Below are positions 2,063-9,823 of a stretch of DNA of 64,000 bases, one piece after another. Source of the stretch: Myxococcales bacterium 68-20 (lineage in GTDB: Bacteria; Myxococcota_A; Polyangia; Polyangiales; Polyangiaceae); contig MKVQ01000023.1 in NCBI GenBank assembly GCA_001899635.1, positions 285,815 through 349,814 of the forward strand, given 5' to 3'. Below the pieces are notes generated by a model that worked only from the letters and a program-made list of their open reading frames with translations, had not been told where the DNA came from and did no database searches. Each line of letters begins with the position of its first letter. Within the stretch, counting starts at the first letter, position 1. A program made the position numbers and the translations under genes.

Positions 2063-2968
2063 ATGGCAACGAACCACCTGCTACGCCTGATGGGAGGAGG
2101 GCTCTTGTGCCTCCTCGCGGCCTGCACGCGTCAGAGCTGCACGCCGGCTCCCGACGGGAATGGTGACGCTCCGCCCGCTGCGTCGGGGACATCGAGTCCG
2201 GGACAAGACACCGCGCGAACGCGACGCTGCTTCAGCGTCGTGGCCAAGGACAACTCCCCCTCCACCCGCGCGGTGTTCGAAGCGAAGCATTGCCAGGGAG
2301 GCGGCGTGACTTGGGCAGGCATCCTGCGCGTCCTCGTTCACCGCCGAGGCACGAGCAAGGCCGTCGAAGCGGAGACTCCGGGATGGACGGGGGACGTGCG
2401 CACACTGTCGTGGGAGGGTGGCAGTACACGAGTGGCCATCGACGACGAGGCTGACGCGGCGCTGTTCTGTGCCGACTCGCAGCGTCTCGTCGACGAGATC
2501 CGGAGCGACGTAAAGCGACTGAACGCTCGAGCGGGAGAGCTGGAGCGCGCCATGGGAGAAGCGAATCCATTCGAGCTCGAATGCCTTCCAGACGACGCGT
2601 CCCTCTCGGCCCTGATGAACGGATTGAATCCCTCCCCACCCCCTTCACCTGCGGAGGCTCGCGCACGCGAAGACGGGCTTGCTCGGATGCGCGCGGTGCT
2701 CGCCAAACAGCGCACGTGGTGTTGGGGACCGGGCGGCGCGGCGTTCGGCGGAAAGGGCGGCTTCACGTTGCACGAGAACGGTCAGGCAGCCTCGTTCGGT
2801 GACGGTGCAACTCCTCGCGACGGCCGATGGACTCTCGGACAGGACGGACGGGTCGAGGTCATACTGCCGGGGGGCCTGCATCACTTCGACGCGGGAGAGA
2901 ATGGGCGACTGGGATTCAACCACACGGCCGGACGCGAGGAGCTCCAGCCCTGCGTGCAGCCTCGGTGA
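2063..2968 (+). CDS. Hypothetical lipoprotein
   Basis: 301 residues. The ATG at 2063 gives a clean lipoprotein signal (MATNHLLRLMGGGLLCLLAAC, lipobox LAAC), so it is probably exported and acylated; the longer open frame back to a TTG at 1862 has no such signal. After the lipid Cys comes a Pro/Ala/Gly/Ser linker, then a globular part with a few Cys (CFSVV, ALFCADSQ, LECLPDD, TWCWGPGG). The last ~60 residues contain a GRWTLGQDGRVEV stretch like small beta-rich lipid- or ligand-binding folds. I do not recognise the family. The Hsp70 gene follows 122 bases later and may have its own promoter. Confidence 0.7.
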   Translation: MATNHLLRLMGGGLLCLLAACTRQSCTPAPDGNGDAPPAASGTSSPGQDTARTRRCFSVVAKDNSPSTRAVFEAKHCQGGGVTWAGILRVLVHRRGTSKAVEAETPGWTGDVRTLSWEGGSTRVAIDDEADAALFCADSQRLVDEIRSDVKRLNARAGELERAMGEANPFELECLPDDASLSALMNGLNPSPPPSPAEARAREDGLARMRAVLAKQRTWCWGPGGAAFGGKGGFTLHENGQAASFGDGATPRDGRWTLGQDGRVEVILPGGLHHFDAGENGRLGFNHTAGREELQPCVQPR

Positions 2969-3090
2969 GGCTCACTGGAGAGCCTGGCGGATCGAACGGA
3001 GGTCGAGGTGGGAGCCAACATGCGTCGCGCCCGCAGCAACGAAGACGTCTCCTGCATCCGAGACGGCACCGTGCTAGCAGTTGCTACCGA

Positions 3091-5562
3091 ATGCGTAGCT
3101 TTCTCGGGATCGACCTCGGCACCACCAACTCCGTCGCGGTCCTCGTAGATCTCGACGGACGGACCACCGCGGTCCGCACGGCCGATGGCGGCTCGCTCCT
3201 TCCGAGCGTGGTGAGGCTCGACGCACGCGGGAACGTGATCGTGGGCGCGCGGGCGCGGCGCTTCCTCGACTCCGATCCGGAGAACACACGCGGCGAGTTC
3301 AAGCGGCTCATGGGCTCGGGACGCAAGCTCTCGTTCCGCTCGGCGAAGGTGGAGAAGACACCCGAGGAGCTCTCGGCGCTCGTGCTCGGGGCGCTTCGCA
3401 GTCACGCAGAGCAGGTCCTCGGTCATGCGCCGAAGAGCGTCGTCATCACGGTACCCGCCCTCTTCGAGCTGCCGCAGACGAGAGCGACGAGTGAGGCCGC
3501 TCACCTCGCGGGATTCGAGCACGTCGAGCATCTCCAGGAGCCCGTCGCCTCGGCGCTGACCGCGGGATGGAAGCGCGACGAGGACTCGGCGCCTTGGCTC
3601 GTCTACGACCTCGGCGGCGGCACGTTCGACGTGTCGCTCCTCGAGACCCGTGAGGGCGTGCTCCGCGTGATCGATCACGACGGCGACAACTTCCTCGGCG
3701 GACGCGACATGGACGCCCGGCTCCTCGACCACGTGCTCGCCACCCTGAGCGAGACGTACGGCCGTCCGTTCCGCCGCGAGGATCCTGCGCTCGGTCCGGT
3801 CCTCCGCCGGCTCCGGACGGCGTGTGAAGACGCGAAGATCGAGCTCGGGAGCGGGCGCGACGCCTCGATCACGCTCGTCGAGCCGCTGGTGATCGACGGG
3901 GAAGAGATCCTCGTGGACGTTCCGATCGAGCGACACCAGTTCGACGCGCTCGTCCTACCGATCGTCGATCGCTCGATCGAGGTGTGCCGCCGCCTGGTCG
4001 CTCGACAGGGCCTTGCCCCGACGGGCATCGGCCGGATCGTGCTCGTCGGCGGTCCGACGGTCATGAGCACGCTCCGCCAGCGCCTCGAGGAGCGCCTCGG
4101 GATCGCGTTGGCCACCGACGTCGATCCGATGACAGCGGTGGCCGAGGGTGCCGCGCACTTTGCCGCCGAGCACGAGCTCGCGACGACGGGAGCCGCTAGC
4201 AAGACCGACGCGGCGAAGCGGGCGCGCGAGACGTCTCAGCCCAACGCCGAGAAGGTCTGGCTGCAGTATCCGAGCATCTCGGGCGACCTCTATCCGTACG
4301 TCGTCGGGCGTGTCGCGGCGGGCAAGGTCGCGACGGTGAAGCTCGAGCGCGCCGGCGGCGGCTTCACGAGCGCGGAGGAGCGCGTCGACGAGGACGGCTC
4401 GTTCGTCGTCCAGGTCGAGCTCCGCCCGCGAGTGCAGAGCACGTTCCGCGTGCTCGCCACCGACGCACAGGGCCGCGCGGTCACGCTCGATCGCGACGAG
4501 CTGACGATCCGCCACGGTCTCTCGCTCGCCGACCCACCGCTCTCGCGCACGATCGGCATCGCGCTCGCCGACGGCAACGTCGCCGTCTATTTCGAGCGCG
4601 GCGCTCCCCTGCCCTCGCGCAAGACGTTCCGGCTCCGGACGTCGCTCACGGTGCACCCCGGGCAGAAGGAGAGCGCGGTCAGTGTTCCCATCGTGCAGGG
4701 CGAGGTCGAGCTCGCACACCTCTGCCGCCTCGTCGGCACCATCGAGATCCGGGCGGAGTCCCTCACGAGCGTCTTGCCCGCGGGGTCGTCGGTCGACGTC
4801 GTCCTCGAGCTCGATCGCGGCGGGAGGCTCTCCGCAACCGCACACCTGCCCGAACGCGGGGTCTCGTTCCCGGGAACGCTCGTCCTCGTAGCACCGGACG
4901 CGCCGCTCGCCGACCTGGAGGCGCAGCTCGAACGCCTGCGCGCGAAGACCGAGTCACTCTACGCCGACAGCCTCGTAGACGACACCGGCCGGAAGAAGCT
5001 CGTCGCGATCGACGCGTTGCTCGACGACGCCTCGCGCGAGGTCGAGGCGGGACGCGGGAACGATCCCGACGCGCTCGAGAAGCTCCGACGTCTGCTCATC
5101 GAGGCGGACGGCGCGATCGCCGACGTCGACGCGCTGCGCGCCTGGCCCGAGCTCGAACAGACGGCGCTCGAGAACGTCAGCTTCGCCCTGAGCTGGGTCT
5201 CCCATCTCGGCAGCGACGGCGAGCGCCGAACGCTCGACGAGGCGATCCGGAGCCTCGAACGTGCACGCGCGATGCGCAACGCGTCCGAGTTCGGCAAGCG
5301 GATGCGGACGGTCGAGAACCTCGGCGTGGTCGCCGCGATGCGCGACCCCGCCGTCGTGGCGCGTCAGCTCCGCAGCGCGAGCGCAAGGATCGGTGAGATG
5401 CGCGACCCTCACGCTGCACGGCAGCTCATCGCGAAGGGCGAAGCGGCGCTTGCATGCACGGACATCGACGAGGCGCGGAAGACGACCTACGCGCTCTGGG
5501 ATCTCCTCCCTCCCGAGGAGCGTATCCGGGCGAAGGCTCACGGCTCCGGCGTCGAGCGCTGA
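3091..5562 (+). CDS. Hsp70/DnaK-family protein, divergent type
   Basis: 823-residue ATP-dependent chaperone-like protein. The nucleotide-binding domain covers residues 1 to ~370: phosphate-1 loop GIDLGTTNS (6-14), phosphate-2 loop DLGGGTFD (~173-180) and adenosine motif VLVGGPT (~317). The substrate-binding region is only loosely DnaK-like (GAPLPSRKTFRLRTS), and the ~250-residue helical C-terminus differs from housekeeping DnaK, which is ~640 residues and ends in an EEVD-like or acidic tail. Start ATG 3091 is chosen because the ATPase begins at once; upstream sequence is Arg-rich noise. The next gene starts 5 bases after the stop and encodes a J-like protein, so this is a dedicated chaperone unit rather than the general DnaK. 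Confidence 0.88.
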   Translation: MRSFLGIDLGTTNSVAVLVDLDGRTTAVRTADGGSLLPSVVRLDARGNVIVGARARRFLDSDPENTRGEFKRLMGSGRKLSFRSAKVEKTPEELSALVLGALRSHAEQVLGHAPKSVVITVPALFELPQTRATSEAAHLAGFEHVEHLQEPVASALTAGWKRDEDSAPWLVYDLGGGTFDVSLLETREGVLRVIDHDGDNFLGGRDMDARLLDHVLATLSETYGRPFRREDPALGPVLRRLRTACEDAKIELGSGRDASITLVEPLVIDGEEILVDVPIERHQFDALVLPIVDRSIEVCRRLVARQGLAPTGIGRIVLVGGPTVMSTLRQRLEERLGIALATDVDPMTAVAEGAAHFAAEHELATTGAASKTDAAKRARETSQPNAEKVWLQYPSISGDLYPYVVGRVAAGKVATVKLERAGGGFTSAEERVDEDGSFVVQVELRPRVQSTFRVLATDAQGRAVTLDRDELTIRHGLSLADPPLSRTIGIALADGNVAVYFERGAPLPSRKTFRLRTSLTVHPGQKESAVSVPIVQGEVELAHLCRLVGTIEIRAESLTSVLPAGSSVDVVLELDRGGRLSATAHLPERGVSFPGTLVLVAPDAPLADLEAQLERLRAKTESLYADSLVDDTGRKKLVAIDALLDDASREVEAGRGNDPDALEKLRRLLIEADGAIADVDALRAWPELEQTALENVSFALSWVSHLGSDGERRTLDEAIRSLERARAMRNASEFGKRMRTVENLGVVAAMRDPAVVARQLRSASARIGEMRDPHAARQLIAKGEAALACTDIDEARKTTYALWDLLPPEERIRAKAHGSGVER

Positions 5563-5567
5563 TCCCC

Positions 5568-5891
5568 ATGTACCCTCACAATCCATTTTACGTGCTCGAG
5601 CTCGGTCACGACGCTGCGCCCGGCGAGATTGAACGCCAGGGACGGAAGCTGCTCGGGCTCTTCGAGGTCGGCTCGACCAAAGCCGGCACGTACACCTGCC
5701 CGCTCGGAACGTTCGAGCGCGACGAGACGATGGTGCGCGAGGCGATGGCTGCCCTGCGCGATCCGCGCCGCCGCGCGAAGGAGAGCTGCCTCGTGAGCCT
5801 GCTGGCAGGCGCCGGCGAGGAGACGATCGTTCGCGAGCAGGACTCCCCCCTCGAGGACGCGTTCCTCGCCGGCGGCTATCGAGGACTGTGA
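5568..5891 (+). CDS. J-domain-like protein lacking the HPD motif
   Basis: 107 residues. The start NPFYVLELGHDAAPGEIERQ matches helix I and the turn into helix II of J-domains (compare xxYxVLGVxxxAxxxEI), and MAALRDPRRRAKES matches the helix III/IV end (LxDPxxRxxYD). Between them the loop that should carry His-Pro-Asp is replaced by a different segment (LGLFEVGSTKAGTYTCPLG), so the residues that stimulate Hsp70 ATPase in known J-proteins are absent. It lies 5 bases after the Hsp70 gene and 10 before the membrane-protein gene. I infer it is an adaptor for the adjacent Hsp70. The J assignment is by eye and moderate. Confidence 0.7.
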   Translation: MYPHNPFYVLELGHDAAPGEIERQGRKLLGLFEVGSTKAGTYTCPLGTFERDETMVREAMAALRDPRRRAKESCLVSLLAGAGEETIVREQDSPLEDAFLAGGYRGL

Positions 5892-5901
5892 GGTAGGGAA
5901 G

Positions 5902-7428
5902 ATGTCGGCCATCATCGGCGTCATCGTGATCTTCGCGATCCGCGCACTGCTCGCCTACTCGCAGAGAGGCAAGGTGCAACCTCCGCCGAGCAAGTCGCAT
6001 GGCGGCCGCTCGCTTGTCTGGGGCCTGCTCGTGCTCGTGTGGATCGGTTTCGCGATCTACACGTTGGCGACGATCCTCGCCGTCCTCGTGGACGGGCTCG
6101 AGCCCGTCTCCGCGACGACGCTGCTCTCCGCCGCGTGGAAGATCGTCCTCGCGGGCGCGGTTGCAGCGATGCTCTTCTCCGCCTGGCCGCTGCTCCGCGC
6201 GCTCGCGCGGCGTGGGCACCCGAAGGTCGTCTACTACCTCGCACACATCGCGCTCGTGTGCCCGAGCACCGGGGAGACGTACTCCGGCGCGTGCCTCCTC
6301 GCCCTCCTCGCGCTCGCTCACCGCGGCTCGGTGACGAAGGACGAGCTCGAGTGGATCCGCACGCGACTTCACAAGGAGACGCACCACTTCGGCACCTACG
6401 CGACCGCGCGTGGGCTCCATCTCGCGCTTCAGGCGCGCCTCACGGCGAACGAGAAGCGAACCAGTGACGCCGAGGAGCAATGGCAGCAGGCGCGCTTCCT
6501 CCTCGGCACGGTCACCTATGTCTCCGAGCGCGGTGCTCCCAAACCGGTCCGGCAGCTCGTCTGGGAGCTCCTCGGCCTCGAAGACGCGAGCCTCGGCCGC
6601 TGGGGGTCGCTCGAGGCAGCTCCCGAGAAGCAGCTCACACCGCTCGCGCGCGTCCTCCGGGACTGGGTACGCGATCGCTTCCTGAACAAGCCCGCCTCGC
6701 CCGACGTCGAGCGCAGGAGGCGCCGACTCGCCTCGCCCATCCTCGACGACCTCTTCCAGCGGCCACGCGAGGTCCCTCCTCCCGAGAGTCCCGCGGAGGT
6801 GTGGAGCCGAGCCCGGCGCAACTTCGTCACGCTCGTACGTGGCGGGTCGATCGGACCACGCCACGTGTTGAACCTCCTCGCGACCTTCGACCTACTCCTC
6901 CATCCGAAGTTCGAAGACACGCTCCTTCCGCCCGCGGTCCGCGAAGACGAGGAGCTCACCAACCTCGTCCACGACGACATCGCGAAGGCGCTGACCGGAC
7001 CGATCGCGCGCGAGGGCGCCCCGCTCTTCGCGATGAACGCATACGGCCCGATCTCCGCCCGTGTGTACCAGCAGGTCGAGACCATGCTCCTGGGCGAGAT
7101 GGAGCGTGCGCTCTTGGCCCTCCAGGAGCGCGCGAACACAGGGCTGCGGCAGCATGCGTTCCGCGAGTGGATGGAGGCCTCGTATGTGCGCTCCGTGTTC
7201 CGGCGGGTCGAGATGGCGCTCGGGCCCGACGTCGCGGCTCGGGTCTGGCCGGACTACGTCCTGTGGTACGGGAACTTCGGCGTCCAGCTCTCGGAGACCG
7301 CGCCTCACCGGCGCGTTCTCGCACACACCATCTTCAAGGCGCTGTCCGGAGACGCGGCCCGCTTCGACGACGAGGCGAACGTCAAACAACAGGCACACAA
7401 CGTCATCGTGACGTCTGGGCTCGACTGA
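5902..7428 (+). CDS. Hypothetical membrane protein of the Hsp70/J-like unit
   Basis: 508 residues. Three hydrophobic segments lie at the N-terminus (about residues 2-18, 36-64 and 72-95) and the remaining ~400 residues are soluble and mostly helical, without a motif I recognise. A GAGG-like ribosome site precedes ATG 5902, ten bases after the J-like gene. Tight spacing with the Hsp70 and J-like genes suggests one operon in which this protein anchors or receives the chaperone at the inner membrane (inference). The large C-terminal part has TPR-like Ala/Leu helices (ACLLALLALAHRG, LGEMERALLALQERA). It converges with the UvrA-like gene, 34 bases away. Confidence 0.75.
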   Translation: MSAIIGVIVIFAIRALLAYSQRGKVQPPPSKSHGGRSLVWGLLVLVWIGFAIYTLATILAVLVDGLEPVSATTLLSAAWKIVLAGAVAAMLFSAWPLLRALARRGHPKVVYYLAHIALVCPSTGETYSGACLLALLALAHRGSVTKDELEWIRTRLHKETHHFGTYATARGLHLALQARLTANEKRTSDAEEQWQQARFLLGTVTYVSERGAPKPVRQLVWELLGLEDASLGRWGSLEAAPEKQLTPLARVLRDWVRDRFLNKPASPDVERRRRRLASPILDDLFQRPREVPPPESPAEVWSRARRNFVTLVRGGSIGPRHVLNLLATFDLLLHPKFEDTLLPPAVREDEELTNLVHDDIAKALTGPIAREGAPLFAMNAYGPISARVYQQVETMLLGEMERALLALQERANTGLRQHAFREWMEASYVRSVFRRVEMALGPDVAARVWPDYVLWYGNFGVQLSETAPHRRVLAHTIFKALSGDAARFDDEANVKQQAHNVIVTSGLD

Positions 7429-7462
7429 TCGCGTTCGGAGCGCCGATCGAGGCAGCCACCGA

Positions 7463-9823
<2,361 letters not shown>

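Follow-up and report, generated by a model that had tools for sequence, protein, structure and literature searches.

The His-Pro-Asp (HPD) motif is held to be essential for the action of J proteins on Hsp70, but whether departures from it arose by accident or by selection is described as enigmatic in a 2026 review (PMC13254874). J proteins that lack the motif are known as type IV or pseudo-J-domain proteins (pseudo-JDPs), and Hsc70 can be stimulated by a designed J analogue that has no HPD (PMC13254874). In the canonical contact, H33 of the motif meets L391 in the Hsp70 linker, P34 meets P419, and D35 meets R167 and Q378 (PMC8215388). Within Hsp70, R167 pairs with linker residue D393 and with D481, and simulations indicate that the HPD aspartate disturbs these pairs (PMC7289447). 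Here we describe a three-gene locus of Myxococcales bacterium 68-20, lying in a 64,000-nucleotide stretch of contig MKVQ01000023.1 (hereafter the window), which encodes an Hsp70-like ATPase, a J-like protein without HPD and a membrane protein, and in which the residues of the HPD contact are missing from both partners.

Several described systems resemble this trio in part. With DnaK-DnaJ-GrpE it shares the Hsp70 nucleotide-binding domain (NBD), the ATPase residues, the beta part of the substrate-binding domain (SBD-beta) and the J fold, but it lacks HPD, R167, the linker, D481 and a GrpE gene, and has an extra membrane protein; an earlier sequence-only reading of this DNA was right that it is not the dnaK-dnaJ-grpE set. 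Escherichia coli HscC is likewise a specialised Hsp70 with membrane-anchored J partners, DjlB and DjlC, encoded nearby (PMC8215388). HscC keeps R167, Q378, D148 and a linker reading VILTDI, all of which the window's subfamily lacks. DjlB and DjlC carry anchor and J domain in one protein, whereas the trio has them in separate genes, and they are reported to use HPE (PMC13254874). In the E. coli sequences DjlB has no HPD, while DjlC has one at 196, which may lie outside its J domain. Pam16 (Tim16), acting with Pam18 and mitochondrial Hsp70, likewise ties an HPD-less J-like domain to a membrane complex and an Hsp70 (PMC12953747, PMC13254874), a likeness drawn from published descriptions. Mitochondrial Hsp70, however, also works with the HPD protein Pam18, whereas the trio has no gene for an HPD partner and its Hsp70 has lost the receptor.

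In Myxococcus xanthus, StkA, StkB and StkC likewise comprise an atypical myxobacterial Hsp70 followed by small genes. They are set apart by description, StkB resembling non-specific lipid transfer proteins and StkC (89 residues) resembling PhaE, and neither is called J-like in the available text (PMC4319316). The yeast ribosome-associated complex (RAC; Ssz1-Zuotin) likewise joins a non-canonical Hsp70 to a J protein (PMC10191838). Unlike the trio, RAC is ribosome-bound. Its J protein Zuotin retains HPD and serves a different Hsp70, Ssb. A survey of Myxococcus Hsp70s counts 15 of them, and the term 'J-domain' is absent from its main text as available (PMC8265645). No trio-like system was apparent in search listings of openly licensed PMC papers. 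The kinds of component are known; a conserved cassette that unites an HPD-less J family, a receptor-less Hsp70 and a membrane protein appears to be new.

The source genome measures 11.9 Mb in 52 contigs. Read from the sequence, the gap between the Hsp70 and J-like genes is 5 bases and that between the J-like and membrane protein genes 10 bases, confirming the spacing and the lengths of 823 and 107 residues given in the sequence-only reading. The features of the locus are as follows.

3091 to 5562, forward strand: Hsp70-like ATPase, 823 residues (ATG at 3091, TGA at 5562), with a Pfam HSP70 match
3526 to 3528, forward strand: Glu146, which alignments place opposite Arg167 of E. coli DnaK, the receptor of the HPD aspartate
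4180 to 4530, forward strand: insert of about 115 residues (residues 364-480) replacing the VLLLD linker
4531 to 4860, forward strand: diverged SBD-beta (residues 481-590; about 481-585 by hhalign), with Gly at the D481 position
5545 to 5559, forward strand: C-terminal tail SGVER, the counterpart of the SG[VIL]R with which most of the family ends
5568 to 5891, forward strand: J-like protein without HPD, 107 residues, assigned by AlphaFold2 (AF2) model, fold searches and hhalign
5664 to 5672, forward strand: Glu33-Val34-Gly35 in place of HPD, by helix II register against DnaJ
5688 to 5720, forward strand: predicted beta-hairpin (AF2) replacing the HPD loop, with conserved Y42, P45, G47 and R51
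5902 to 7428, forward strand: membrane protein P0003, 508 residues, assigned by hydropathy, AF2, fold search and hhalign to third genes elsewhere
6178 to 7425, forward strand: soluble tail (residues 93-508), predicted to be cytoplasmic from an all-helical AF2 model and the charge around the last hydrophobic stretch

The J-like protein has a J fold according to its AF2 model, which was built from 31 sequences and has a mean predicted local distance difference test score (pLDDT) of 86.6, with block means of at least 90 up to residue 80. Helices are placed at residues 18-33, 53-64 and 66-83 and strands at 41-44 and 47-50. Nearly all of the 50 Foldseek rows shown are J domains (best E 0.029). VIA-align pairs the model with the CbpA J domain 3ucs_C (Z 8.8, root-mean-square deviation (rmsd) 2.8 over 70 residues) and with the DnaK-bound J domain 5nro_B (Z 7.1, rmsd 2.5 over 55), although such Z values alone are indecisive. 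When the family profile is run against 177,635 PDB entries, Thermus DnaJ takes the top four places (best E 0.0043). Alignment of the family with 12 J domains by hhalign, a set that includes one domain itself devoid of HPD, gives E 8.5e-7 at a probability of 91.5. Single members barely match Pfam DnaJ (one of six, E 0.12). For the window's own proteins, no Pfam family scores above cut-off for the J-like or membrane protein, and no named NCBIfam family does so for any of the three.

HPD is absent from the first 70 matched residues of all 83 distinct J-like relatives, which comprise 74 GTDB rows, eight from genome regions and the window; a 45-bit cut left out five weak matches (L071-L075), that of L069 and a fragment in L166. 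The small protein thus stands as first read, a J-like protein without HPD. The commonest triplet at the HPD position in the family is ELG. The residues of the hairpin predicted to replace the HPD loop are strongly conserved, with R51 in 81 of the 83, G47 in 78, P45 in 76 and Y42 in 74. Position 22, an arginine in DnaJ, is glutamate in 80 of the 83. Elsewhere in the source genome, a J domain at the Pfam cut-off reads ATGG at the usual place of HPD (L105 1501-1704; C17:110743-110946). A different family of HPD-less J-like proteins occurs in three other genomes of the phylum (L072 3503-3760, L073 2978-3193, L074 4328-4546).

The Hsp70 belongs to a subfamily of 81 distinct sequences, which form one clade in a quick tree (SH-aLRT 100, branch length 1.19) against seven control Hsp70s, namely five others from the window's genome, E. 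coli DnaK and HscC. All residue counts given here are over these 81 and include only rows with a letter at the position. Pfam HSP70 covers residues 5-359 only (E 1.7e-71). The catalytic residues are kept, with D8 and K70 present in 77 of 77 rows and E171, D194 and T199 in 78 of 78, in agreement with the complete ATPase motifs claimed earlier. The accompanying claim of an atypical C-terminal half can be refined, as a diverged SBD-beta is recognisable there. Its hhalign match to the E. coli DnaK SBD is of modest score (E 1.2e-4, probability 55.6, 94 columns), and P419, D479 and an isoleucine or valine at 438 are each present in 81 of 81. A PDB profile search with the Hsp70 C-half gave no match at 0.01. 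The long region behind SBD-beta is taken for a putative helical lid (SBD-alpha). The insert ahead of SBD-beta is possibly Ig-like, to judge from a weak Pfam Big_6 match (E 0.0071) that lies below the cut-off; such sub-threshold matches are seen in two of 27 members.

The receptor of the HPD motif is missing from this subfamily. The R167 position reads Glu in 74 of 78 rows, Thr in two, Asp in one and Leu in one, and Arg in none; D148 is likewise kept in none of the 78. At the D481 position, 72 of 81 carry Gly, five Ala and four Ser. The large alignment is untrustworthy at columns 378 and 390-393, which lie in or near the insert, so linker loss was judged by motif patterns and Q378 by a smaller alignment. 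No linker motif is found in any of the 81 by a strict or a loose pattern, as against five (strict) and seven (loose) of eight controls, and the Q378 position is Tyr, Phe or His in all 27 rows of the smaller alignment. In each of the eight controls (six Hsp70s from the window's genome, plus DnaK and HscC of E. coli) R167, D148 and Q378 are intact; a seventh Hsp70 from that genome (L081) keeps R167 and has Glu at 148. Neighbouring charges are also shifted, DnaK D208 being replaced by Arg in 62 and E217 in 76 of 78 rows, with an alignment gap beside 208. The sequence-only reading had suggested that the canonical J contact is not used on the grounds of the missing HPD; because the Hsp70 has lost the HPD receptor residues too, that suggestion is strengthened.

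The carboxyl end of the Hsp70 carries a further mark of the subfamily. SG[VIL]R forms the C-terminal end at 64 of 79 GTDB loci, and SG[VIL] falls within the last six residues in 72 of 79; the Microbulbifer tail reads SGIF. The SG[VIL] tail is absent from all seven other Hsp70s of the window's genome with a visible C-terminus (the eighth, L081, is cut by the locus end). The C-terminus of the membrane protein is less conserved than this tail.

The trio is an old cassette. GTDB genomes were scanned with an alignment of the Hsp70 C-half (A7), and the best 80 loci of 88 relatives were kept; at 69 of the 80, the Hsp70, J-like and membrane protein genes stand in this order on one strand. Of the 11 incomplete loci, four have a contig end no more than 300 bases behind the Hsp70 gene (L127, L131, L158, L165). 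J-like matches begin a median of 20 bases after the Hsp70 stop (98 pairs, some contigs being counted twice). Record titles are mostly those of Myxococcota or 'Deltaproteobacteria' (Sorangium, Minicystis, Nannocystis, Enhygromyxa, Plesiocystis, Archangium and Kofleriaceae). Metagenome-assembled genome (MAG) titles, which may err, extend to Thermoanaerobaculia, Thermoanaerobaculum, Vicinamibacteria, Holophagales, Desulfobulbaceae, Gammaproteobacteria and Burkholderiales; Acidobacteriota are among the taxa in the GTDB titles, and Microbulbifer litoralis is a strain record with a relative. Trios are also present under the titles Klebsiella pneumoniae (L115) and Bifidobacterium breve (L153), titles that look wrong.

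The same association holds within the phylum. Profile A1, made from six J-like proteins, matches 30 of 377 phylum genomes, and in 26 the match reaches E 1e-7 or better. Co-occurrence was counted at limits of E 1e-7 for the J-like protein, 1e-40 for the Hsp70 C-half and 1e-45 for the membrane protein, chosen after inspection of the tables and excluding four, seven and three weaker rows respectively. At these limits there are strong matches to the J-like protein in 26 genomes, to the Hsp70 C-half in 26 and to the membrane protein in 27; all three occur in 25 genomes, two in 2 (J-like and membrane protein in G411, Hsp70 and membrane protein in G415) and none in 350. These counts are inflated by kinship, the 30 A1-matching genomes falling in 19 genera; moreover, members of A7 and of alignment A6 match by construction, because both alignments include loci of the 377-genome sample, and A1 holds two of its genomes (G000, G014). 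The neighbourhood search proposed in the sequence-only reading thus returned a trio that recurs in 25 of 377 phylum genomes and, in order, at 69 of 80 GTDB loci, and we reject the idea of a strain-specific oddity.

With the window's J-like protein alone as query, six of 96 related genomes match, the source genome included. The five others have the three genes in identical order, although in L007 the third gene is split across two frames near its end. None of 11 other genomes of the same genus matches. A recent gain in the window's genus is possible, given this absence and the long branch that sets the window's Hsp70 apart from the Polyangiaceae copies, a placement that is unsure.

The third gene product, P0003, has hydrophobic stretches at about residues 1-22, 34-69 and 73-101, followed in its AF2 model by some 400 residues of helical structure, much as the three-helix protein with a soluble tail of that length first described. 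The model is all-helical (pLDDT 84.0, predicted TM score (pTM) 0.79). P0003 is divergent, with 16-23% identity to 31 aligned relatives and a best BLAST E of 0.015, and a single-sequence genome scan with it confirmed no relative. A comparison with four other third genes by hhalign nevertheless gives a probability of 96.6 (E 5e-10, 381 columns). At least one N-terminal hydrophobic stretch is present in 68 of 69 relatives with both ends (two in 34, three in 27). In 51 of the 69, the 15 residues that follow the last stretch carry more positive charge than the 12 preceding it, and in 12 the two are equal, a bias from which a cytoplasmic tail is predicted; these stretch and charge counts are rough, since start codons are unfixed and as many as 80 preceding residues were included. 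Tetratricopeptide repeat (TPR) and other helical-repeat proteins make up the best structural rows, for example 8d9f_A (Z 10.3, rmsd 3.5 over 151 residues), a Z reachable by a common helical-repeat arrangement. Pfam TPR has no match in the five members scanned, and a PDB profile search with the membrane protein returned nothing better than E 0.066. The tail is perhaps TPR-like, as modelled. Single-member NCBIfam matches of A6, to adhesins and others, were taken for chance or low complexity.

In two loci the J-like and membrane parts share one reading frame. L125 has a single frame of 580 residues just behind the Hsp70 stop, comprising the J-like part, a proline-rich link, a hydrophobic stretch and the tail; L115 (same contig as L060) also joins the two parts. 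These loci fall in different starred groups of the tree, although either shared frame may be a MAG assembly error. Together with gene order and predicted topology, the shared frames support the membrane tethering proposed in the sequence-only reading.

We therefore propose, at a probability of roughly 55%, that the locus encodes a dedicated Hsp70 machine, tethered to the membrane, whose J contact is rewired and independent of HPD. This three-part machine would sit at the cytoplasmic face of the inner membrane, where an Hsp70 retaining its ATPase and a peptide-binding SBD-beta would act on clients that may be membrane-linked. The usual trigger is presumably not used, because the network of HPD, R167, linker and D481 is gone on both partners; instead the J-fold protein would bind through a contact of hairpin Arg51 with Hsp70 Glu146 and might control the ATPase by this route. 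J-like and membrane protein together would hold the Hsp70 at the membrane in a complex. The probable docking site for the SG[VIL]R tail is the membrane protein's TPR-like domain, in the manner of eukaryotic EEVD tails on TPR proteins. A hint of linkage between Hsp70 and J-like protein comes from L063 (5169-6910; same contig as L157), because this locus, whose Hsp70 lacks the middle of the NBD, is the only kept one with Leu at J-like position 51. A more specific version, in which the trigger is inverted so that Arg51-Glu146 replaces Asp(HPD)-Arg167 and drives an Hsp70 cycle free of HPD and VLLLD, anchored through SG[VIL]R on the TPR-like membrane scaffold, is tentative and less likely than not.

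Several observations weigh against this proposal. The structure predictions are of single chains, and it is from them and the genes that we infer interaction between the proteins. The charge swap is not strict, since three Hsp70s with Thr or Leu at 167 (L174, L178, L182) pair with Arg51 J-like proteins, and Arg51 and Glu146 are too invariant for covariation to be measured. Five divergent Hsp70-like proteins of the source genome (L083, L087-L090) also lack R167, so its loss may follow general divergence, and D481 is the weaker marker because the eight controls carry Asp there in four cases and Asn in the other four. Seven of the 11 incomplete GTDB loci are not explained by a nearby contig end: in L126 the J-like/membrane pair lies on the other strand about 4.5 kb off, in L160 the third gene is missing although 3.4 kb remain, and L156, L159, L164, L166 and L177 have no J-like gene within 600 bases with 2.3-8 kb remaining, L166 having only a J-like fragment at the contig end. 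Conversely, seven loci have the J-like and membrane genes without an adjacent Hsp70 (L044, L045, L055, L056, L068, L069, L070), and in G411, the genome of one such pair, the Hsp70 profile matches nowhere.

These Hsp70-less pairs are what would be expected if the J-like protein were a structural subunit of the membrane protein only, with the Hsp70 acting separately or on the pair as a client, and the fold search rows, some of them chains from respiratory complexes of Tetrahymena and from mitoribosomes of trypanosomes, fit such a role. However, a strong Hsp70 match lies elsewhere in five of the seven genomes (G326, G404, G416, G179, G365) and a partial one in G379, and the Hsp70 and J-like genes lie close together across the family, which makes this explanation unlikely. 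We hold it doubtful, though less far-fetched, that the J-like protein is a pseudo-J of the Pam16 kind, docking or restraining the Hsp70 at the membrane and never triggering hydrolysis, while the Hsp70 cycles slowly alone or on client binding. Its universal lack of HPD and the two frames shared with the membrane protein fit a tether, and Pam16, which lacks HPD, is described as non-stimulating and regulatory (PMC12953747, PMC13254874). Yet Pam16 acts beside a second, HPD-bearing J protein (PMC12953747, PMC13254874), which is not found among the three genes, and the conservation of the hairpin, R51 above all, suggests more than a passive tether; Pam16 is not among the rows shown in the J-like fold searches, an absence that excludes nothing. 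Least probable, and to our minds very much so, is that the Hsp70-like protein is an actin-fold, ATP-driven scaffold or switch that polymerises or signals at the membrane and is no chaperone. The window's Hsp70 also matches MreB (E 1.3e-12), which fold relatedness alone could give, and DnaK allosteric residues are lost, but HSP70 matches the NBD far better and SBD-beta is retained, with its residues at 419 and 438 invariant in kind.

Other contexts for the cassette were considered. No PADLOC anti-phage defence model matches the three proteins at E 0.01, and a defence-system reading was rejected. Plasmid cargo was also rejected; the 72,556 plasmid records searched yielded a single weak match, at 21.8% identity. 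No sigma-70-type promoter was found in 2800-7700, where 0.1 would be expected. A wider operon was likewise rejected: among frames of at least 150 residues within 3.5 kb, none recurs phylum-wide and the widest cluster spans 15 loci. An opposite-strand frame upstream of the trio in L112 (2533-4266, reverse strand) has relatives in 15 loci, several titled Kofleriaceae. In the window, a 786-residue frame at 7463-9823 on the reverse strand converges on the trio; we take its product to resemble a UvrA-type ABC protein. Just upstream of the J-like/membrane pair in L069 and L070, a frame on the opposite strand looks to encode a FabH-like protein.

Across this family, a whole set of HPD-less J-fold proteins is maintained beside one dedicated Hsp70 that lacks the HPD receptor, and this family-wide pairing points to selection for a different contact. 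The trio is a compact, expressible system for Hsp70 control without HPD and without a hydrophobic linker, at a membrane, and the cassette could represent a naturally occurring Hsp70 that has no need of the usual J-protein trigger.

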